DNA from: Chlorobiaceae bacterium
GTDB lineage: Bacteria > Bacteroidota > Chlorobiia > Chlorobiales > Chlorobiaceae
NCBI GenBank assembly: GCA_013334335.1
Contig: JAAXXR010000012.1
Coordinates: 1-44,789 of the forward strand
Length of the DNA stretch: 44,789 bases
Direction of reading: 5' to 3'
Shown here: one piece after another, positions 724 to 21,249 of the stretch
Position numbering within the stretch: the first letter of the stretch is position 1
Layout: every line of letters begins with the position of its first letter
The notes under the pieces: generated by a model
The model's database searches: none
The model's input: the letters and a program-made list of their open reading frames with translations, nothing else
What the model was told of the DNA's origin: nothing
Position numbers and translations under genes: made by a program

Positions 724-1382
724 GCAACGGCCCTGACATCCTCGTCAGCGAGATCTTCCACTCCATCCAGGGTGAATCCACGTTCGCAGGATGGACCTGC
801 GCCTTCATCCGTCTTGCAGGGTGCGGTCACGGTTGCCGCTTCTGCGACACCACCTATGCAGAAGCGTTGGGTCAAACCATGACGGTCAGAGCAGCCTTGG
901 AACAGGCGATGGCCTTCGGCGCGGCCTGCATCGAGGTCACCGGCGGAGAGCCGCTCTTGCAGCCGGGCTCCTACCCCCTGCTCGAAGCCCTGTGCGACCG
1001 TTGCCCGCACGTGCTGCTCGAAACCGGCGGATTCCTCCCTGTGGACAGGGTCGACCCGCGCGTACGGATCATCCTCGACGTCAAGGCTCCTTCTTCCGGC
1101 GTCGCGGAGGAGAACTGCCTCGACAACCTGCCGCTCGCCCTTCGCTCGCCCAGCCGCTTCGAGTTCAAGTTCGTTCTCGCTTCCCGGGAGGATTATCTCT
1201 GGGCCCGGGAGTTCATCAGCGCCCACCGGCTGGCCGGAAGCTGTACAATCCTCTTCGGTGCGGTGTTCGGCAAACTTGAACTGCAGCGACTCGCCGAATG
1301 GATCCTCGAAGACCGACTGCCCGTCCGGATGCAGCTTCAGTTGCACAAGTACATCTGGCCACCTGAAACGAGGGGGGTGTAA
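720..1382 (+). CDS. queE: 7-carboxy-7-deazaguanine synthase
   Basis: This radical SAM enzyme (220 aa from the ATG at 720) converts 6-carboxytetrahydropterin to 7-carboxy-7-deazaguanine in the preQ0/queuosine tRNA modification pathway. The N-terminal EIFHSIQGE motif is the QueE signature. CGHGCRFCDT supplies the Cx3Cx2C ligands of the SAM [4Fe-4S] cluster, and EVTGGEPLLQ is the GGEP SAM-binding motif. I chose 720 because it starts just before the signature and overlaps the purN stop as ATGA; the frame stays open upstream to 666 but would add a non-homologous leader. Length fits the family. The following glycosyltransferase starts one base after its stop, so purN-queE-GT2 looks like one transcription unit. 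No other queuosine gene is in the window. Confidence 0.94.
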   Translation: MSNGPDILVSEIFHSIQGESTFAGWTCAFIRLAGCGHGCRFCDTTYAEALGQTMTVRAALEQAMAFGAACIEVTGGEPLLQPGSYPLLEALCDRCPHVLLETGGFLPVDRVDPRVRIILDVKAPSSGVAEENCLDNLPLALRSPSRFEFKFVLASREDYLWAREFISAHRLAGSCTILFGAVFGKLELQRLAEWILEDRLPVRMQLQLHKYIWPPETRGV

Positions 1383-1383
1383 G

Positions 1384-2370
1384 ATGACCGCCCTCACGGT
1401 GATCGTGCCGCTGTTCAATGAACGGGAATCGCTCCCTGAACTGAAGCGTCGGCTGTTCGAGGCACTCGATAACCCTGCGCTCCCCGAGAGCTTCGGAGAG
1501 CATACCGGATTCGAAGTGATCATGGTTGACGACGGTTCTACCGACGGTTCGGCGGATCTCGTCAGGGAGATGATCACCGAACGGCCTGAAATACGGTTGA
1601 TCTCGTTCAGGAGGAACTATGGGAAGACCGCCGCGCTGTCGGCAGGATTCCGGGCGGCATCTGGCGAGATGGTCATCACGATGGACGCCGACCTGCAGGA
1701 CGATCCGGGCGAGTTCCGTCCGCTCCTCATGAAGCTGCGCGAAGGGTACGACATGGTGAGCGGCTGGAAGCTGGAGCGCAAGGACCCCCTCTCCAAAACC
1801 CTGCCGTCGAAGCTCTTCAACTCTTCGACCCGCCTTTTCAGCGGCATTCCGCTGCACGACTTCAACTGCGGCCTGAAGGCCTACCGGAGGAGGCTGGTGG
1901 CGTCGCTCGACCTGCATGGGGAGATGCACCGCTACATCCCGGTGATCGCCCACTGGAACGGCTACCGGGTGACGGAGATGCCTGTCAGGCACCATCCCCG
2001 CAAATACGGCAAAAGCAAGTTCGGCGCGGCGAGGTTCTTCGCCGGCCTGTTCGACTTCCTCTCGGTGATGTTCATCACCCGATACCTGCGCCGACCCATG
2101 CACTTTTTCGGGATGATGGGACTCGGCAGCTTCATGACCGGACTGCTGATCAGTCTCTACGTGACGCTCGACAAGCTGATGAACCATCGTCCGGTGAGCA
2201 ACCGCCCGATCCTTTTCCTCGGCATCCTCCTGATCATCCTCGGCGTTCAGCTCTTTTCGACCGGCCTGCTCGGCGAGATGCTCTCGACACGCCCGGCGAG
2301 ATCGGCCGGTTATGCCGTTCGCGAAACAGCGAACCTCGACGAGGAGATCGTCCGGAAACTTGAGGTATAG
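1384..2370 (+). CDS. GT2 family polyprenyl-phosphate glycosyltransferase (DPM1/GtrB-like)
   Basis: A 328-residue GT-A fold glycosyltransferase with a C-terminal membrane anchor. TVIVPLFNERESL opens the nucleotide-binding fold, MVDDGSTDGS is the family motif near residue 44, and DADLQDDP carries the metal-binding DxD. Two hydrophobic helices near the C-terminus (about residues 243-265 and 280-305) match the GtrB/ArnC/DPM1 arrangement, in which a sugar is moved from a nucleotide donor to undecaprenyl phosphate on the cytoplasmic face. The sugar cannot be read from sequence. The ATG at 1384 lies one base after the queE stop with a GAGGGGGG purine run upstream. It might serve cell-surface polysaccharide synthesis together with the rml/manC cluster at 11405-16414, but that is inference. 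Confidence 0.85.
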   Translation: MTALTVIVPLFNERESLPELKRRLFEALDNPALPESFGEHTGFEVIMVDDGSTDGSADLVREMITERPEIRLISFRRNYGKTAALSAGFRAASGEMVITMDADLQDDPGEFRPLLMKLREGYDMVSGWKLERKDPLSKTLPSKLFNSSTRLFSGIPLHDFNCGLKAYRRRLVASLDLHGEMHRYIPVIAHWNGYRVTEMPVRHHPRKYGKSKFGAARFFAGLFDFLSVMFITRYLRRPMHFFGMMGLGSFMTGLLISLYVTLDKLMNHRPVSNRPILFLGILLIILGVQLFSTGLLGEMLSTRPARSAGYAVRETANLDEEIVRKLEV

Positions 2371-2475
2371 CTTCGGGACAACGCCAGCGGGTCGGGTTGA
2401 GTGAACTGGCTGAACAACAAGAATGCACCATTAAATTTGATTTGCTGTGAACCACCCTCATGTTAACACCCGCCT

Positions 2476-3321
2476 ATGAAACGTATCGGCGCACATGTCA
2501 GCATCGCCGGTGGTGTCCAGAACGCCCCGGTCAACGCCCGTGAGATCGGAGCCAGAGCCTTCGCCATGTTCACCCGGAACCAGCGCCAGTGGCACTCGGC
2601 CGCGCTGACCGCCGATTCTGTCGAGGCCTTCAGAAACAACTGCGCCGAATCGGGCTTCCTTCCGCAACATATCCTGCCGCACGACAGCTACCTGATCAAT
2701 CTCGGCCATCCGGAGCCGGACAAGCTGCAAAAATCGCGTGAAGCTTTTATCACGGAGATGCAGCGCACCGAAACCCTTGGCCTCGTCATGCTGAACTTCC
2801 ATCCCGGAAGCCACCTGAACCTGGTGAGCGAAGACGAGTCGCTCCGGCTGATCGCTGAGTCGGTGAATCTGGCGCTCGAAACAACCCGCGGCGTGTCGGC
2901 GGTCATCGAAAACACGGCAGGGCAAGGGAGCAACCTTGGATTCCGGTTCGATCAGATCGCACGGATTATCGGGAGGGTTGAGGATAATTCGAGGGTCGGC
3001 GTCTGCCTCGACACCTGCCATCTTTTCGCGAGCGGCTACGACATCCGGACTCCTGTCGCCTTTGACGCCATGCTGGAGGAGTTTGACCGGACGATCGGGC
3101 TGCGCTACCTGAAAGGCATGCACCTGAACGACGCCAAACAGCCGCTGGGGAGTCGGGTCGACCGGCACGCCTGCATCGGCAAGGGAATGATCGGCATGGA
3201 GGCTTTTGCTTACATCATGCGGCACCCATCGCTCGAGGAGATCCCCCTGATTCTCGAAACACCCGACGCCGATGGCTGGAAGGAAGAGATCCGAATGCTC
3301 TATGGATTTGCTGAACAGTAA
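2476..3321 (+). CDS. nfo: Endonuclease IV (AP endonuclease)
   Basis: This 281-residue TIM-barrel enzyme cleaves 5' of abasic sites in base-excision repair. Family motifs appear in order: [11 protein letters not shown] at the N-terminus, [56 protein letters not shown] and ILETPD. They include the His, Glu and Asp ligands of the three-zinc site. Length equals the bacterial family norm (about 280-285). It starts 105 bases after the glycosyltransferase and could be in the same run, though the spacing suggests its own promoter. It converges with ftsX on the other strand across a 96-base gap, in which AAGGGAA and TTCCCTT could form a weak shared hairpin. Confidence 0.96.
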
Positions 3322-3417
3322 GGGTCTGAACGGAAGAAAGGGAACAGGGATCGTGATAAACGAAGTCCTTGCATTTTCTTCCCTTGTGCCTTGAACGCCG
3401 GACTTCAGCTCCTCCCA

Positions 3418-4290
3418 TCAATCCCTCCTCAGAAACCTCCCCACCGACAGGCTGCTGCCGAACATGCCGAGCAGCAGACCGAGAAGTGCGAGTCCTGGAT
3501 AGATGATGAGCGCCGAGGGGTGCAGAACCTGGTACATGCCCGGTTCGTAACGCAAGAGGGCCTGCTCGAACATCAGCCAGATACCAAGGGCGGCAAGACC
3601 ACCGGAGACCAACCCCTGAACCGCGCCCTCGATGAGGAACGGTGCGCTGATAAAGCCGCGGGTGGCGCCGACCAGTCGCATGGTCTTGATCTTTTCCCTG
3701 CGGGCATACATGGCAAGCCTGACCGTGTATGCGTTCATGACGATGGTGGCAATGGCAATGACCGCTCCGATCCCTGCCGTCAGCATCGTGAACAGACGGG
3801 CGTTGCGCTCGAGCGTCAACAGGTGCTCCTGGTTGTACCTGATATCAAGTCCGTAATCAAGCGACGATATCTTCCGTCGGATCCGGTCGATGCCATCCGA
3901 ATCGGCATAGGCGGGCAGAATGGACAACTTCGCCGATCGAGGCAGCGGATTGACCCCGAGTATGCCGACGACGTCCTCCCCGAAATCACGGGCGAACCGC
4001 ACCGCAGCCGCCTCCTTTGAAACGTAGGAGACTCCGCTCACCCCCGGGATATGCCGCATCTGTTCCGTGAGCACGGAGGCCTGGGAGTCGCCGGTGGCTT
4101 CACTGAAAAAGACCTCCATCTCGACGCGGGAACGCACCTCCTGAATCAGGTCGTAGAAGCTGAGTGAGACCGTACCGAACAGCCCGAGCAGCACCAGCGA
4201 AAAAAAGCCGATGACCATGGTGATGGCCGCAGGCACCTTTGCCCGTCCGATTCCTGAAAACCCCTCTTTAATGCTGTACATGAGATCCAT
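3418..4290 (-). CDS. ftsX: Cell division protein FtsX (ABC transporter permease-like)
   Basis: FtsX is the membrane partner of FtsE and regulates septal peptidoglycan hydrolases. The protein has one membrane helix near residues 23-43, a periplasmic domain of about 110 residues, then three helices in the FtsX/MacB-type C-terminal domain. The stretch REKIKTMRLVGATRGFI is the conserved FtsX cytoplasmic loop just after the second helix. At 290 aa it is slightly short compared with E. coli (352) but typical for other phyla. The start is uncertain: ATG at 4290 is listed, with a TTG at 4329 and an ATG at 4281 in the same frame, and none has a convincing Shine-Dalgarno. ftsE is not adjacent in this window, unlike many bacteria. 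Confidence 0.88.
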   Translation of the reverse strand: MDLMYSIKEGFSGIGRAKVPAAITMVIGFFSLVLLGLFGTVSLSFYDLIQEVRSRVEMEVFFSEATGDSQASVLTEQMRHIPGVSGVSYVSKEAAAVRFARDFGEDVVGILGVNPLPRSAKLSILPAYADSDGIDRIRRKISSLDYGLDIRYNQEHLLTLERNARLFTMLTAGIGAVIAIATIVMNAYTVRLAMYARREKIKTMRLVGATRGFISAPFLIEGAVQGLVSGGLAALGIWLMFEQALLRYEPGMYQVLHPSALIIYPGLALLGLLLGMFGSSLSVGRFLRRD

Positions 4291-4346
4291 CGCCAACGCG
4301 TTTGTTTGCTTGAAATCAAACCATAACAAAGAATCAAAAAAAGCTG

Positions 4347-4375
4347 TTGCAAATCAAAGTTTTTTTTCGGATAAT
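4347..4375 (+). promoter_or_regulatory. Sigma70-type promoter of tRNA-Ala
   Basis: TTGCAA (4347-4352) and GATAAT (4370-4375) are separated by exactly 17 bases and lie 14 bases upstream of the tRNA-Ala 5' end. This is close to the housekeeping consensus TTGACA-N17-TATAAT. Confidence 0.6.
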
Positions 4376-4389
4376 TAGACCTACAAATC

Positions 4390-4462
4390 GGGGCTATAGC
4401 TCAGTTGGTAGAGCATTTGCATGGCATGCAAAGGGTCAGGAGTTCGAGTCTCCTTAGCTCCA
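4390..4462 (+). tRNA. tRNA-Ala (anticodon GGC)
   Basis: A full cloverleaf folds by eye. The acceptor GGGGCTA pairs with TAGCTCC (one G-U), the D arm is GCTC-AGTTGGTA-GAGC, the anticodon stem TTTGC/GCAAA encloses ATGGCAT with GGC at positions 34-36, and the T arm is AGGAG-TTCGAGT-CTCCT. The discriminator is A. The 3' CCA is not encoded (the genome reads CAA after the discriminator), so it must be added by CCA-transferase. A promoter lies upstream and a terminator hairpin starts 10 bases downstream, so this is a single-gene unit. Confidence 0.97.
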
Positions 4463-4471
4463 CAATGCAAG

Positions 4472-4513
4472 AGGCGGTCACAGAGGAAACTCCGTGACCG
4501 CCTTTCCTGTTTT
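4472..4513 (+). terminator. Rho-independent terminator of tRNA-Ala
   Basis: AGGCGGTCAC (4472-4481) pairs perfectly with GTGACCGCCT (4494-4503) around a 12-base loop, followed by TTCCTGTTTT. It sits directly downstream of the tRNA-Ala gene. Confidence 0.75.
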
Positions 4514-4610
4514 CGGGCCAACCGGCCCGGATCGCTACCGGACCCAGCTGCCTCACCATCCGGGTTGGCGCGCTGCCTGAAAGGGGTCTCCCCCTGGCCT
4601 TTGCCTTCAG

Positions 4611-5138
4611 TCACGCCCGCCCGATGCCTCTCACCGCCCTCGTCACCATAAAAACGAATCCGACCAGCAGTGATGCCGCCAGTCCTGCGGCGATGTTCAG
4701 CGTTGCTGCCGCAACCACCGCCTTGGGCGTCAGTTCGATAACCGCACCGGTCAACGGCGAGGTAACCGAGTGCATGACGGCCGTCAGGAGGGTAAAAATG
4801 AAACTGGTGGCAATGCTGCCGGCGAAGGAGACGAAGAGTCGTTCACGCGTCCCTTTCGCCACGGCCTGGTGACGCTCGATCTGCTTGAGCGAACCGGGAT
4901 CGATCAGGTTCTTGACGGCCATCGAGGTAAGGGCAATCGCAATCAGCACAGGGACGTAGCAGAAATAGACGGTAAGCCACTCGCGTGCACCGCTGTCGAA
5001 CACCCCTTCGCCGACGAGGTGCGTTGCGACGCCAAGCATCCACGAGGAGGTTATGAAAAATACCGTCCCCCAGAGAAGGGTCACCAGGATCCAGATCCAT
5101 ACCGAGGGAGGAACTGCTTTTTTTGGGAGTTCTGTCAT
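4611..5138 (-). CDS. Integral membrane protein of unknown function
   Basis: I do not recognise this 175-residue protein. Hydrophobicity suggests four membrane helices: about residues 14-36, 55-75, 103-123 and 138-165. Between the second and third there is a basic, polar cytoplasmic-looking segment (KQIERHQAVAKGTRERL). There are no cysteines or histidines arranged as a metal site. The reading frame has the same codon style as neighbouring genes and no overlapping competitor, so I think it is real. It is transcribed away from purF, with a 276-base intergenic region that contains a perfect 13-base dyad (5169-5207). It ends just before the tRNA-Ala terminator, from the opposite direction. Confidence 0.7.
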   Translation of the reverse strand: MTELPKKAVPPSVWIWILVTLLWGTVFFITSSWMLGVATHLVGEGVFDSGAREWLTVYFCYVPVLIAIALTSMAVKNLIDPGSLKQIERHQAVAKGTRERLFVSFAGSIATSFIFTLLTAVMHSVTSPLTGAVIELTPKAVVAAATLNIAAGLAASLLVGFVFMVTRAVRGIGRA

Positions 5139-5168
5139 AAATGTTAAAGGTGTTGAACGTTGTCGGAC

Positions 5169-5207
5169 CGTCTGTCGTTATGAATGATGAAATGATAACG
5201 ACAGACG
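5169..5207. promoter_or_regulatory. Perfect 13-base dyad between divergent genes
   Basis: CGTCTGTCGTTAT (5169-5181) is repeated exactly as its reverse complement ATAACGACAGACG (5195-5207) with a 13-base spacer. It lies 31 bases upstream of the membrane-protein start and about 210 bases upstream of purF. No T-tract follows directly on either strand. It could be an operator for a dimeric regulator or a leader hairpin. I see nothing else definable in 5139-5414. Confidence 0.5.
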
Positions 5208-5414
5208 CTGACATTCAATTCCTTTTTTCGGGCAATCTGTTATTTTACCCTGTTTTTGAAATTTCCCGACGGTGGCGGCTTGTTTTTTTCAGCCAATGCA
5301 TCCTGGGTCAACAACGGGGTGCGCGTATTTATTTTGAGATTCCGCTTGATATATTGAAGCCATTTGTCAATTTTAATGGCGAAAGATTTCACCCAAACTT
5401 AACGTTTTACCCTT

Positions 5415-6908
5415 ATGTGTGGAGTTTTCGGTGTTTTCAATTCTAAAACTCCAGCCGAAGATACCTTCTATGGGCTGTATTCCCTGCAACACAGGGGTCA
5501 GGAAGCGGCAGGTATCGTCGTCGCAGAATACAACAAAGCTAAAAAAAAGACCCTATTCAAGCAGCACAAGGGTCCCGGTCTGGTTTCTGAGGTATTCAGG
5601 GACGAACTGATATTCGAGGCCCTGACCGGATATGCGGCAATAGGCCACAACCGCTACTCCACCACAGGATCATCGAAATCCACCAACAACATCCAGCCAT
5701 TCTCCCTCACGTACCGCTCCGGAAGCCTCGCCATCGCCCACAACGGAAACCTGACCAACTCAAGACATCTCCGCCGGGAACTGACCGAGCAGGGGGTGAT
5801 CTTCCAGGCCTCATCTGACACCGAGATCATCCCGCACCTCGCGGCCAGAAGCAAGGAGAAAGAGCCGCTGCACCAGATTTACGCCGCGCTCAGACAGGTG
5901 GAGGGAGCATACTCCATGGTCATTCTGGCCAACAACCAGATGATCGCGGCTCGGGACCCCTTCGGCGTCAGACCGCTGGCCCTGGGTAAAAAAATCGACC
6001 CTTCGACCGGTGAGCTTGCCTATGTGGTGGCCAGTGAAACCTGTGCTTTTGATATCATCAAGGCCGAATACATCCGGGACATCGAACCAGGTGAAATCCT
6101 CCTGATCGACCACCTGGCGATCGCCAACGAAAAGCCGGTCTCGATATTCCTTCCTCCAACCGAACGCAAGGCCCGCTGCATTTTCGAATTCGTCTACTTT
6201 GCCCGTCCTGACAGCACGATCTTCGAGAACTCGGTCGACAAGATCAGGCGGAATCTCGGCAAGAATCTCGCCAGGGAGTCTTCGGTAGATCATGAGCCCG
6301 GCGAAAAGGAACTGACCGTGGTCAGCGTGCCAGACTCTTCAAACACCGCCGCCCTGGGGTTTGTCCGCGAAAGCAACAAACTGGGCAAGCCTGCCCGCTT
6401 CGAGCATGGTCTCATCCGCAACCATTATGTCGGCAGGACCTTCATCCAGCCGGGCATCCACAGTCGCGAAATCAAGGTCAGGTCGAAATACAACATCGTC
6501 AGGGGCGTCCTGCAGAACCGCTCTATTCTCCTCGTGGACGACTCGATTGTCCGTGGCACGACGGCCAAAATGCTCATCAAGCTGGTTCGTGAAGCGAATC
6601 CGAGCGAGATCCACCTGCATATCAGCTCTCCGCCGATCACCAACCCCTGTTTTTACGGCATGGATTTCCCGACCAAACGGCAACTCCTGACCCACATGTT
6701 CAGCGATTCGGAAAACTCACTTGATGATATCGAAAAGATCAGGGAGTACATCGGCGTCGACTCGCTCAAATACCTCTCGATGCAGGGGCTGCTGAACAGT
6801 GTGCCCAAGTTTGAAAACGAAGCCTGCAGCTATTGTACGGCCTGCTTCAGCGGCGACTATCCGATCAGGGTGACGGATGCCACGACGGACAAGGAGGAGA
6901 ACGATTAG
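5415..6908 (+). CDS. purF: Amidophosphoribosyltransferase
   Basis: This 497-residue enzyme makes 5-phosphoribosylamine from PRPP and glutamine, the first committed step of purine synthesis. Mature protein would start at Cys2 (MCGVFGVF), the Ntn-hydrolase glutaminase nucleophile; YSLQHRGQEAAGI and GHNRYSTTG are glutaminase motifs. ILLVDDSIVRGTT is the PRPP-binding loop. It is the Bacillus-type enzyme with a [4Fe-4S] cluster: candidate ligands are the Cys in RKARCIFEF, the Cys in NPCFYGMD and two of those in CSYCTACFSG near the C-terminus. An oxygen-labile cluster suits an anaerobe. The start is fixed by the catalytic cysteine. No Shine-Dalgarno is visible. The gene is followed by a 49-base palindrome. 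Confidence 0.97.
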   Translation: MCGVFGVFNSKTPAEDTFYGLYSLQHRGQEAAGIVVAEYNKAKKKTLFKQHKGPGLVSEVFRDELIFEALTGYAAIGHNRYSTTGSSKSTNNIQPFSLTYRSGSLAIAHNGNLTNSRHLRRELTEQGVIFQASSDTEIIPHLAARSKEKEPLHQIYAALRQVEGAYSMVILANNQMIAARDPFGVRPLALGKKIDPSTGELAYVVASETCAFDIIKAEYIRDIEPGEILLIDHLAIANEKPVSIFLPPTERKARCIFEFVYFARPDSTIFENSVDKIRRNLGKNLARESSVDHEPGEKELTVVSVPDSSNTAALGFVRESNKLGKPARFEHGLIRNHYVGRTFIQPGIHSREIKVRSKYNIVRGVLQNRSILLVDDSIVRGTTAKMLIKLVREANPSEIHLHISSPPITNPCFYGMDFPTKRQLLTHMFSDSENSLDDIEKIREYIGVDSLKYLSMQGLLNSVPKFENEACSYCTACFSGDYPIRVTDATTDKEEND

Positions 6909-16554: not shown

Positions 16555-17343
16555 TCACTTGGCGATGAACCCGGGATTGAGCAGGTCCGGCTTGTTATAG
16601 CTCAGTTCCTCTCCGGTGCGGATATCAAGCACGCTCATGCCGACCGCCTTGAGAATGGCATGACCTGCAGCCGTCTCCCACTCAAACGTAGCCTCAAGGC
16701 AGGGATAGATGTCGGCATCTCCGGCCGCGACCTGACACAACTTCATGGCGCCGCCCTTCGGCACGACATCGATCTTCAGATACCCTTTGCCAGGATCGTC
16801 CATGTAGCTGAGCACCATCTCCTCATTGCAGGAACGGCTGACAAGAATCCGGCACGATCGTGGGCCGAAAAACTCTCCACTTCCGGACGAACGCAACAGA
16901 CGGCTGGTGTCGGCGATCGCGCTGCTTGCATCCCTTATCCGAAAAGCTCCCGATTCCCTGCTGGCACAAAAAAGTTCGTCCTTGGCCGGAGCATACACCA
17001 CCCCGAGCACCGGCTCGTGACCCTCGACGAGCGCGACGCTCACCGTATACTCTCCGGAACAATCCATGAACTCGTCGACATTGTCGAGTGGTGAAACGAG
17101 CCAGAACTGCTGCCAGCCCGACCGGACCTCATAAGGCACACGCTCGCCATGTTCACTCAGGATCGGCAACCCGGTCACAGAAAGGGTCTGCGTGATCAAC
17201 TGATGTGACTCCATACCTGCATCGTCGGGAGCATATCCCTCATCATCCCCACCAACGTGAACCGGTACGCGGCAGTCGTGCCTCGCAATTGCCCTGCCGG
17301 CTTTCAGGCATGCCTCAATGGCTATGATGAGCTCAGGTGTCAT
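16555..17343 (-). CDS. CysQ-like inositol monophosphatase-superfamily protein with altered active site
   Basis: The 262-residue protein is recognisably of the CysQ type (3'(2'),5'-bisphosphate nucleotidase), a family that recycles PAP: DAGMESHQLITQTL, LPILSE, QFWLVSPLDN, and DIYPCLEATFEWETAAGHAIL. However, conserved metal-site positions differ. The canonical D-P-L-D-G-T reads S84-P-L-D87-N-V, the second Glu of S-E-E is His65, and the canonical W-D is W222-E223. Only Glu64 and Asp87 of the usual ligands seem intact. It may be a catalytically weak or repurposed paralogue. I chose the ATG at 17343; the frame is open to 17415. It precedes rmlA by 140 bases on the same strand and diverges from the GH13 gene. 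Confidence 0.8.
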   Translation of the reverse strand: MTPELIIAIEACLKAGRAIARHDCRVPVHVGGDDEGYAPDDAGMESHQLITQTLSVTGLPILSEHGERVPYEVRSGWQQFWLVSPLDNVDEFMDCSGEYTVSVALVEGHEPVLGVVYAPAKDELFCASRESGAFRIRDASSAIADTSRLLRSSGSGEFFGPRSCRILVSRSCNEEMVLSYMDDPGKGYLKIDVVPKGGAMKLCQVAAGDADIYPCLEATFEWETAAGHAILKAVGMSVLDIRTGEELSYNKPDLLNPGFIAK

Positions 17344-17399
17344 GATCGTTTTGATAATGAGAATTCCCCCGTTTGCACCGATCGGCATCCTCCAGTCAC

Positions 17400-17513
17400 G
17401 GACATGCACGGACATGGGCGGAAAACAACGGGCTGCCGCTTTGACAGTAGTTTGTCAAATAGCGTGCCAGTCGACCGTTATCATCCCGACATGCAGTCTG
17501 GACATGCATGTCC
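17400..17513. promoter_or_regulatory. Cluster of GGACATG-type motifs in a divergent intergenic region
   Basis: The 384-base gap 17344-17727 has no gene I can support. It contains GGACATGC at 17400, GGACATGG at 17410, CGACATGC at 17487 and a perfect 14-base palindrome GGACATGCATGTCC at 17500-17513. Repeated half-sites next to a full dyad between divergent genes suggest a regulator-binding region; no regulator is identified. Confidence 0.4.
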
Positions 17514-17727: not shown

Positions 17728-20700
17728 ATGAGCACCAAAACCAAATCCCAGGCCAAAGAACATTTCTATATCAACCGTACGGCCAGAGACCTTTACCATC
17801 TGGACGATCCTGCCGTGCTGTCGCTTCCTGCCGATCGTCATGAGGCCCTGAAACAGGCTGAAGTACTGACCGAATCGATCAACCGGCGCATCACCCTCCT
17901 GAAGGGTGCCGAAGCAAAAAAGCTGCTCCCTGCGCAGTTCCACGGGATGAAACTGCTGCACGAGATGTTCCACCATATTCTGACCAAGGTCGACACCCTC
18001 TCTTCGGCCGCACTCTCCTTTGCCGAACGTGATACCTCAGCCTGGCACACCAGAGCTTACCTGAGCGGTTTTCTGGATCTCTTTCCGCCAAGCGAGCTGT
18101 ACCGCAGCCCGACAAAAACCGAAAAGTACCTGAACACGACCACGAACCTGCTCAACGCCATCGAAGAGTCCTACCTGGTCTGGCTGAACAACCAGAACCC
18201 GGCGCTGGAACCATTTTCAGACCTCCTGACCGACAGCGAGCTTCGCGAAAACCGCACCTATCCGCACCTGATCTCGGCAATGCAGCACGCCATGTCGGAA
18301 GCCGGGCCCGTAGGCAATGAACAGGTCGACCTCGCGGAACTGCTCACCCGCCCGATGCGGAACGCTCCCGATTCCCTCTTGGCGCAGCTCAGGTACATCC
18401 GCCTGCACTGGACCGACCTGCTCGAGGACTCTCCGTGGTGGGGCCTCCTGGACGACGCCATCACCCTGATCGAAGACGAGGACCGCTACCTCTTTTTCGA
18501 AAAACTGGCCACGGAAGGTGGGGGGCACCGGGGGGGCGGCATGTCGGCAAACGAGTCGCACGTCCCAAGCTATGCAAACCTTGACGATGCGCCGGCCAGG
18601 TACTCCCATGACTCCTCATGGATGCCGGAGGTGGTCATGATTGCCAAAAGCACCTATGTGTGGCTCGACCAGCTCAGCCGGAGCTACGGATTCCCAGTCC
18701 GCCGCCTCCAGGACATACCTGACCGCGAACTCGACCTCCTTGCCGAACGCGGGTTCACCGCCCTCTGGCTCATCGGCCTCTGGGAGAGAAGCCATGCATC
18801 GCAGATGATCAAGCAGATACATGGTAACCCGGAAGCCAAGGCTTCCGCGTACGCCCTCGAGAACTATGAAATCGCTCGTGAGATCGGCGGTTATGACGGC
18901 TACCTCGACCTCAGGAACCGGGCCATCCAACGAGGCATCCGCCTCGCAAGCGACATGGTCCCGAATCACACCGGTATCGATTCCGAGCTCGTCAGACAGA
19001 AACCCGACTGGTTTCTCAGCACCAAGGAACCTCCCTACCCCAATTACAGCTACAACGGCCCCAACCTCAGCAGTGACAGCCGCTACGGCATCCACATCGA
19101 GGACGGCTACTGGAACCGGTCCGACGCTGCGGTGACCTTCAAGCGGGTCGACTACCTGACTGGGGACACGAGGTATATCTACCACGGTAACGACGGCACC
19201 AACATGCCATGGAACGACACCGCCCAGCTCAACTTCCTTGATCCGGAAGTCCGGGAAGGAGTTATCCAGCAGATCCTTCATGTCGCCAGGATGTTCCCGG
19301 TCATCAGGTTCGACGCCGCAATGGTGCTTGCCAAGATGCACATCCAGAGACTCTGGTTCCCGTTGCAGGGCCACACCGCAGGAGTACCGTCACGCGGTGC
19401 CTTCGCCATGAGTATGGCCGACTTCGAGGCGGCCATACCCGAAGAGTTCTGGCGGGAGGTGGTGGACCGGGTCAAGGAGGAGGTGCCGGACACGCTCCTC
19501 CTTGCTGAAGCGTTCTGGATGCTTGAGGGTTATTTCGTCAGAACCCTCGGCATGCACCGCGTCTACAACAGTGCCTTCATGCACATGCTCAAGAAGGAGG
19601 ACAACGCCAGTTACCGGCAGCTCATCAAAAAGACCCTCGAGTTCGACGCCGAAATCCTGAAGCGATATGTCAACTTCATGAACAACCCCGACGAAGACAC
19701 CGCCATCGCCCAGTTCGGCAAGGGGGACAAGTATGTCGGCGTGTGCATGATGATGATTACCCTTCCAGGACTGCCGATGATTGGACACGGACAGGTGGAG
19801 GGGCTGACCGAGAAGTACGGCATGGAGTATGCCCGCGCCTACTACGATGAGTACCCGGACGAGGAGTTGGTCAGTCGGCACTACCGGGAGATCTTCCCCA
19901 TCATGAAGCTGAGGCGGCTGTTTGCAGAGGTGAACAACTTTTACCTGTTCGATGTCTACGGTACTGACGGCAACGTGAACGAACATGTGTTCGCCTACTC
20001 CAACCGGCTCGGAGACGAGCAGGCCCTTGTCCTCTTCAACAACCGCTATGATGCCGCAGAGGGATGGATCCGGTTGTCTGCCGGTTATCTCCGCGACGGT
20101 TCGATCATGCAGACCCGGCTCCTCGACGCGCTTGCGCTGCCTGACGACCAGGATGACTATGTCGTTTTCAGGGATCACGCAAGCCAGCTGGAGTTCATCC
20201 GTTCCTGTACGGGTATCCGCGACAACGGACTCAAGGTATCCCTGCAGGGATACCGCTACAATGTGTTCCTGGACTTCAGGGTGGTGCGCCCCTCAAGGCT
20301 CAAGCCCTACGACAGGGTTTGCGACGACCTTGGCGGACGCGGAGCAGCCTCGATTGAACTCGAAGCGCTCTCCATGAGCCTCAGGCCGGTGCACCGCATC
20401 GTCTCGGCCGGGCTCAAGGCACTCCTTGACGCGCCCCCGGAAGCCATCACGGCTGACGCATCCGCAGCGCTGTTCGGTGAAGCGTGCGAATCCCTGCTGG
20501 CCGACCTTTCCGGCTGTTACGAGGAGATCATGGAACAAGCGCTTTCTCTGCCAGGGAACATTGCCGCGATGGCCTCCTCCAGATACCTCTCCGCCATGAA
20601 ACTCTCGGCCGGGCTTGAGAAAAAGGAGGGTGAAAAGCGCCTCAAGGTCGCGCTCGGCATCACCGAAGAGGGTGACAGTGTCTTTCGTGGCATGGTCCGG

Positions 20701-21204
20701 CACCTGATCGCCCTTGAGTGCATTCAGGAGATGGTCAGCCATAACGGACTGCTTCAGCACCAGCTCATCGACGACTGGCTCCTGGCTGGATCGCTCTCGC
20801 CGCTCTGGACTGAAGAGAACGGATTTCCACTCTCGGGGGTTGACCTGGTGCACCTCTTCTCCTGCCTCCTGCTCCTGAAGAAATCCCGCACGTCTCAGGA
20901 AACTCCGGCGTCTCCCCTGAAAAACGGAATTCGCAGTCTGTTCACCGCTCACGAGCCCCACTTCATGGCATTCATGCGCTTCGAGCACCTGCACGCAAAA
21001 ACCTGGTTCAGGGAACAGCGTTTCACGCTCATGATCTCCTGGCTCTCACTGTATAGCTGGCTCGACGAACTCCCCGCAGATCCTGCAACTGAAACTGCCG
21101 CGAAGGATGCATCACTGAACGCATGGCTTGAAGAGTTCGAGCATCTCGATGCAGCCGCGTTCCTCAGCGGCTATGAGATGCAGGCACTGTTGAAGGAGGA
21201 GTGA
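17728..21204 (+). CDS. Large GH13 (alpha-amylase clan) protein with long N- and C-terminal domains
   Basis: A 1158-residue protein. Residues about 330-800 form a GH13 barrel: YDGYLDLRNRAIQRGIRL precedes region I DMVPNHTG (409-416); region II VIRFDAAMVLAK gives the nucleophile Asp529; region III LLLAEAFWMLEG gives the acid/base Glu594; region IV FMNNPDED supplies the transition-state Asp655 (N-P-D instead of N-H-D). All three catalytic acids are therefore present. Before the barrel are about 320 residues, mostly predicted helices, ending in a Gly-rich stretch (GGGHRGGG) likely to be a flexible joint. After it are about 300 residues that look helical and are not a standard amylase beta-domain. 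No signal peptide is seen, so it is probably cytoplasmic, acting on glycogen, maltodextrin or trehalose-type substrates; specificity cannot be read. Confidence 0.88.
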   Translation: MSTKTKSQAKEHFYINRTARDLYHLDDPAVLSLPADRHEALKQAEVLTESINRRITLLKGAEAKKLLPAQFHGMKLLHEMFHHILTKVDTLSSAALSFAERDTSAWHTRAYLSGFLDLFPPSELYRSPTKTEKYLNTTTNLLNAIEESYLVWLNNQNPALEPFSDLLTDSELRENRTYPHLISAMQHAMSEAGPVGNEQVDLAELLTRPMRNAPDSLLAQLRYIRLHWTDLLEDSPWWGLLDDAITLIEDEDRYLFFEKLATEGGGHRGGGMSANESHVPSYANLDDAPARYSHDSSWMPEVVMIAKSTYVWLDQLSRSYGFPVRRLQDIPDRELDLLAERGFTALWLIGLWERSHASQMIKQIHGNPEAKASAYALENYEIAREIGGYDGYLDLRNRAIQRGIRLASDMVPNHTGIDSELVRQKPDWFLSTKEPPYPNYSYNGPNLSSDSRYGIHIEDGYWNRSDAAVTFKRVDYLTGDTRYIYHGNDGTNMPWNDTAQLNFLDPEVREGVIQQILHVARMFPVIRFDAAMVLAKMHIQRLWFPLQGHTAGVPSRGAFAMSMADFEAAIPEEFWREVVDRVKEEVPDTLLLAEAFWMLEGYFVRTLGMHRVYNSAFMHMLKKEDNASYRQLIKKTLEFDAEILKRYVNFMNNPDEDTAIAQFGKGDKYVGVCMMMITLPGLPMIGHGQVEGLTEKYGMEYARAYYDEYPDEELVSRHYREIFPIMKLRRLFAEVNNFYLFDVYGTDGNVNEHVFAYSNRLGDEQALVLFNNRYDAAEGWIRLSAGYLRDGSIMQTRLLDALALPDDQDDYVVFRDHASQLEFIRSCTGIRDNGLKVSLQGYRYNVFLDFRVVRPSRLKPYDRVCDDLGGRGAASIELEALSMSLRPVHRIVSAGLKALLDAPPEAITADASAALFGEACESLLADLSGCYEEIMEQALSLPGNIAAMASSRYLSAMKLSAGLEKKEGEKRLKVALGITEEGDSVFRGMVRHLIALECIQEMVSHNGLLQHQLIDDWLLAGSLSPLWTEENGFPLSGVDLVHLFSCLLLLKKSRTSQETPASPLKNGIRSLFTAHEPHFMAFMRFEHLHAKTWFREQRFTLMISWLSLYSWLDELPADPATETAAKDASLNAWLEEFEHLDAAAFLSGYEMQALLKEE

Positions 21205-21221: not shown

Positions 21222-21249
21222 AGCGAGGCGGTCGAGCGACCGCCTCGCT
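21222..21249 (+). terminator. GC-rich hairpin after the GH13 gene
   Basis: AGCGAGGCGGTCG (21222-21234) and CGACCGCCTCGCT (21237-21249) are perfect inverse copies with a 2-base centre, 17 bases after the GH13 stop. There is no T-tract, so it may be an imperfect terminator or a 3'-end stabilising hairpin. Confidence 0.5.

Follow-up and report, generated by a model that had tools for sequence, protein, structure and literature searches.

A giant GH13 protein with two helical flanking domains in Chlorobiaceae, a candidate glycogen-remodelling enzyme

The window analysed here, a 44,789-nt stretch of DNA from a member of the Chlorobiaceae, carries on its forward strand an uninterrupted open reading frame (17728..21204) that encodes a 1158-residue protein, which we call the giant GH13. 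Because full-length relatives with 57-76% identity are found across the Chlorobiaceae, a spurious or chance reading frame can be ruled out. The sole Pfam match of the protein is PF00128, over residues 334-696 (38.2 bits, against a curated cut-off of 22 bits), and this match, together with an Asp-Glu-Asp triad in regions II, III and IV, places it in GH13. We aligned 119 relatives, some of them partial, drawn from the Chlorobiaceae, from elsewhere in the phylum and from a Myxococcota phylum. Region I reads D-M-V-P-N-H (residues 409-414; 18952..18969). The nucleophile D529 (19312..19314) and the general acid/base E594 (19507..19509) align with the GH13 triad; their surroundings are conserved as I-R-[FL]-D-A-A-M in 114 of the 119 members (I-R-F-D-A-A-M in the protein itself) and as L-L-L-A-E-A-F-W in 118. 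Region IV is N653-P654-D655 (19684..19692), with Pro in place of the usual His, and N-P-D-E stands at this position in 117/119 members; as it is near-invariant, we regard it as a family trait rather than a sequencing error. An earlier sequence-only reading of the locus had reported the complete triad D529, E594 and D655, the N-P-D variant and the absence of a signal peptide. The alignment agrees with the first two, and the N-terminus shows no hydrophobic signal sequence.

Just past the stop codon lies a perfect 12-bp inverted repeat with a 4-nt loop (21222..21249), which is not followed by a T run and is possibly a terminator hairpin. Upstream, the nearest reading frame (16555-17415, reverse strand) is divergently oriented. 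Given this hairpin and the divergent neighbour, the giant GH13 is probably transcribed alone in the window.

An AlphaFold2 model of the whole protein, built from 37 relatives, had a mean pLDDT of 78 and a pTM of 0.60, with the catalytic loops at low confidence, and it places helices at residues 17-263 and 861-1156 and the barrel and strands from about 300 to 853. The protein can thus be divided, all on the forward strand, into an all-helical N-terminal domain (residues 1-290; 17728..18597), a GH13 barrel with a C-terminal beta-domain (residues 291-852; 18598..20283), recognized by PF00128 and by VIA, and a C-terminal helical domain (residues 853-1158; 20284..21201) that shows weak conservation and that family members can dispense with. 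The sequence-only reading had described two helical flanks around a barrel making up less than half of the protein; the helical character and the approximate limits stand, and the barrel with its beta-domain spans 562 of the 1158 residues, while the N-terminal part is nearer to 290 than to the 320 residues proposed. That the flanks resemble no usual amylase module is also upheld, since neither has convincing sequence relatives in the PDB: the N-helical flank retrieved none, and for the C-helical flank the matches were limited to designed helical proteins and one myosin construct (E 0.03-0.7).

Modelled alone with 54 relatives, residues 1-295 gave a more confident AlphaFold2 prediction (pLDDT 90.6, pTM 0.85). 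A Foldseek search of the PDB with this model returned no match at E<=0.001, and the best VIA match in the PDB was weak (Z 3.7, rmsd 4.4, 94 residues). Such weak or missing matches are no proof that the predicted N-domain fold is new, and nothing among them supports a known fold. The barrel aligned with GH13 structures in VIA (Z 17.0, rmsd 4.0, 318 aligned residues; Z 16.9, rmsd 4.5, 385 aligned residues), and these matches are unable to pick out a subfamily because many GH13 structures fall within Z 14.5-17.

Conservation differs along the protein. The mean column identity of the barrel across relatives is 67%. Most relatives have the N-domain, with the first ~200 residues eroded in several, and the C-helical part is variable, being absent or diverged in several members of ~900-1000 aa. 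The protein is not confined to Chlorobiota: its N-domain is common across the Bacteroidota phylum and in a Myxococcota phylum, whereas the C-helical part is poorly conserved. An HExxH motif (residues 78-82; 17959..17973) sits within an N-domain helix and is kept in many members of the same phylum and lost elsewhere; a zinc metallopeptidase-like N-domain, with HExxH and a third ligand, was rejected because many members with an otherwise preserved domain have lost or changed the motif. An origin of the two helical parts by duplication was likewise discarded, as hhalign found nothing (probability 0.3%). Lysine-rich C-terminal tails occur in 10/119 members, and histone-H1-like tails of this kind end giants outside the Chlorobiaceae (L095, L097, L098, L099, L101, L104, L106, L113). 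A DUF1508 domain (E 5.6e-18) was detected in one relative.

By sequence, the nearest solved relatives of the barrel are 4gkl and 3dhu, both named alpha-amylases. These proteins, from Thermotoga neapolitana (AmyB) and Lactobacillus plantarum, respectively, are treated as GH13_48 enzymes; in GH13_48 and GH13_49, region IV closes with N-H-D, as in most GH13 subfamilies, and a conserved Cys immediately precedes the nucleophile (PMC11239784). The giant GH13 resembles GH13_48 in its barrel, in its C-terminal beta-domain and in the G-Q that ends region VII, a trait of both subfamilies that is present here as H-G-Q in 117/119 members. It differs in having N-P-D (117/119) rather than N-H-D and Phe, or rarely Leu, where those subfamilies place Cys ahead of the nucleophile, and it differs from GH13_48 also in its two helical flanks. 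The [WY]-[GA] ending of region II and the Asp before the acid/base that mark GH13_49 are replaced by I-R-F-D-A-A-M and A-E-A. Set apart in this way by the features described for GH13_48/49 (PMC11239784), the family is plausibly a new GH13 subfamily on sequence grounds, as the sequence-only reading had suggested, and no full-length match to a characterized GH13 subfamily appeared. A literature search found no paper describing the family.

Could the protein be an ordinary intracellular maltogenic amylase or alpha-glucosidase, close to GH13_38/48/49 and fitted with accessory domains? The two best PDB sequence matches and the G-Q ending would suit such an enzyme, as would the best NCBIfam match, haloarchaeal MalA, although at 42.6 bits this lies far beneath its cut-off of 875 and no NCBIfam cut-off was reached by the giant GH13. 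However, the region IV His is Pro throughout and Phe, not Cys, precedes the nucleophile; moreover, the degree of barrel conservation and the glycogen-gene context described below exceed what would be expected of a general amylase. We consider this explanation improbable.

The classical glycogen enzymes are also distinct from the giant GH13. What it would have in common with GlgB (GH13_8/9) and GlgX (GH13_11) is its suggested function, the branching or debranching of glycogen, and GlgX, too, occurs fused to GH77. Unlike them, the giant GH13 has no N-terminal CBM48 (PF02922), a domain also absent from the families listed for 37 members, and neither TIGR01515 (GlgB) nor TIGR02100 (GlgX) was among its NCBIfam matches. 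Its nearest paralogue in the same genome is a 504-aa GH13 protein (L160:4932-6446, contig C112), with 30% identity over 404 columns. The two have in common the W-L-x-x-L-S barrel start and a P-W-x-D-T-x-Q-L-N motif, whereas the paralogue has N-H-D and the Cys before the nucleophile and lacks both flanking domains. This paralogue co-occurs with the giant GH13 in many genomes.

The comparison with GlgE (GH13_3) bears on a further explanation, that the giant GH13 is a GlgE-like transferase or phosphorylase using a sugar phosphate such as maltose 1-phosphate. The two share the GH13 fold, a link to the glycogen pathway and a Pro ahead of the region IV Asp: N-P-D recalls the N-T-P-D found in the host's own GlgE-like protein, and the host genome has both a TreS-maltokinase gene and the adjoining GlgE-like gene. 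GlgE structures are among the fold matches of the barrel (Z 15.9, rmsd 4.4, 386 aligned residues), tied with many other GH13 structures, and the Z values of many subfamilies lie within 2 of each other. Similarity in sequence is merely local, covering 116 columns (hhalign E 8.8e-6) against 404 for the 504-aa protein, and the genome already possesses GlgE itself. To our knowledge, no helical N-domain of this kind occurs in GlgE. We therefore regard use of a sugar phosphate as very unlikely.

The family is close to universal in the host's own lineage. Among 296 sampled genomes of the phylum, as grouped by the tool, with strong matches defined as E<1e-100 and contig-split genes included, the giant GH13 was found in 64/65 Chlorobiaceae, in all ten genomes from sister families of the order and in 42 others. 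It was also detected in 28 of 237 sampled genomes of a second phylum, that of L076, to which the tree gives the label Myxococcota. Of the sampled Chlorobiaceae genomes, G280 alone lacks the giant GH13; it is 88% complete and carries GlgX.

This distribution is best viewed beside the glycogen enzymes that these bacteria encode. The host genome (99.6% complete) has six GH13 genes, encoding the TreS-maltokinase, the GlgE-like protein, the giant GH13 and proteins of 655, 641 and 504 aa; the GlgE-like protein was named from its sequence motifs and its position beside TreS-maltokinase, NCBIfam giving no equivalog. A phosphorylase match is present, whereas neither GlgX (TIGR02100, E<=1e-30) nor GlgB (TIGR01515, E<=1e-15) was found in this genome, nor any recognizable GH57, GH77 or GH133. 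Across the order, GH77 had no match in any sampled Chlorobiales genome, GH133 was found in 0/77, and the GlgB model TIGR01515 passed its cut-off in 0/77; this cut-off is strict, being missed by several control genomes, and the absence of GlgB is read also from the lack of strong sub-threshold matches. Phosphorylase matches, by comparison, occur in 66/77 Chlorobiales genomes. GlgX is present in only nine of the 65 Chlorobiaceae, eight of which keep the giant GH13. The sister families have strong GH57 matches as well as GlgX-like matches and retain the giant GH13 nonetheless; the single sister-family GH57 that was examined (L165) has middle and C-terminal domains of the amylase/4-alpha-glucanotransferase type.

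Gene neighbourhoods connect the family with glycogen at four loci. In L108, a member of the same phylum within a well-supported clade, the giant gene is followed on one strand by glgC and glgA, and the open frames of the giant and glgC overlap by 22 bp. Two members from the Myxococcota phylum (L145 and L148) have a complete C-terminal GH77 domain fused to the giant, with the GH77 motifs RIDHFR and EDLG kept. A GH57-DUF3536 gene is divergent from the fusion gene in L145; in L148, the fusion gene has glgC and glgA in its vicinity, with an intervening GH57-DUF3536 gene. In L141, the giant gene overlaps by 25 bp a gene (1088-5716, reverse strand) for a 1543-aa protein combining GH57-DUF3536, GH77 and phosphorylase. 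L108 and L141 occupy separate parts of the tree, and the long branches of L145 and L148 are unsurely placed. A GH57-DUF3536 enzyme from Pontibacter was reported to show weak hydrolysis or 4-alpha-glucanotransferase-like action and next to no branching activity (PMC11206854). The fusion itself has a precedent in NCBIfam NF011083, named GlgX/4-alpha-glucanotransferase, in which GH13 and GH77 stand in the same order. All other searched loci, those of the Chlorobiaceae included, had no GlgC, GlgA, GH77, phosphorylase or GH57 gene nearby, so the glycogen link rests on these four. Recurrent neighbours emerging from clustering (a histidine kinase, a PLP enzyme, a sugar dehydrogenase-like protein and protein kinases) were judged uninformative, and a role in defence was set aside, PADLOC giving only a marginal match (E 0.003) to a model described as GlgB.

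Taken with the fold, the GH13 triad implies a retaining double-displacement reaction on an alpha-glucoside. It is the gene context that points to glycogen or maltodextrin as the substrate, narrowing the cytoplasmic candidates of the sequence-only reading, which had also included trehalose and sugar phosphates, to storage glucan. We consider it likely that the giant GH13 has some role in glycogen remodelling. As to the reaction, we tentatively prefer a cytoplasmic retaining alpha-glucan transferase, and a branching one in particular, a reading that falls somewhat short of probable. We favour branching for two reasons: nearly all of the order seems to lack an occupant of the GlgB slot yet almost invariably retains the giant GH13, and in L108 the giant, glgC and glgA stand in an operon-like order. 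Against it stand the GlgX-GH77 precedent, which favours debranching, the naming of the nearest solved relatives as alpha-amylases, the missing CBM48 and the fact that most neighbourhoods examined, including every one from the Chlorobiaceae, contain no glycogen gene. The 504-aa paralogue could fill the GlgB slot instead.

Debranching or chain transfer follows close behind, because GlgX is known to be fused to GH77 and because those slots are empty in most Chlorobiaceae. According to this alternative, the giant GH13 would act in glycogen breakdown after phosphorylase, as a debranching and/or 4-alpha-glucan-transferring enzyme replacing GlgX, MalQ and GH133. The absence or scarcity of these enzymes in the Chlorobiaceae, in an order where phosphorylase is widespread, would be explained, as would the domain order shared with the named fusion and the presence of GlgX in the one Chlorobiaceae genome that lacks the giant GH13. 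However, eight GlgX-positive Chlorobiaceae keep it, as do the sister families with their GH57 and GlgX-like matches, and the L108 operon with glgC and glgA suggests synthesis. We see debranching as a serious alternative, if an unlikely one.

Under the preferred branching reading, D529 would attack a glucan chain to form a glycosyl-enzyme, with E594 serving as acid/base, and the chain would then be handed to another glucan. The outcome would be an alpha-1,6 branch, the giant GH13 standing in for the GlgB that is seemingly missing from the host order. The N-helical domain may serve to hold glycogen in position or to assemble the enzyme, and the C-helical part would be accessory. A bolder and more doubtful proposal is that the family represents a third, unrecognized type of glycogen branching enzyme that falls outside GH13_8/9, is marked by N-P-D in region IV and by an N-domain fold unseen in solved structures, and carries out the branching of glycogen in green sulfur bacteria. 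In one such bacterium, Chlorobium limicola, glycogen has been reported to contain alpha-1,6 branches (PMC11269200), yet the host genome has no recognized branching enzyme, and a near-universal GH13 protein with links to glycogen operons offers one concrete candidate for this step in the Chlorobiaceae. Should the activity be confirmed, GH13 would gain a subfamily with an altered region IV and a new accessory domain, which would aid the annotation of many genomes in at least two phyla.

Two other GH13-type proteins were observed in the course of this work. One Chlorobiaceae genome (G197) encodes a 603-aa CBM48-GH13 protein (L162:1489-3300) whose score with the GlgB model, 255 bits, falls short of the cut-off; from its sequence, this protein could provide branching in G197 alone. 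In the host genome, the 641-aa GH13-like protein (L161:3979-5904, contig C71) apparently lacks N-H in region I and has E-N-H-N in region IV, and its gene adjoins sugar-kinase-like and sodium/solute symporter-like genes.
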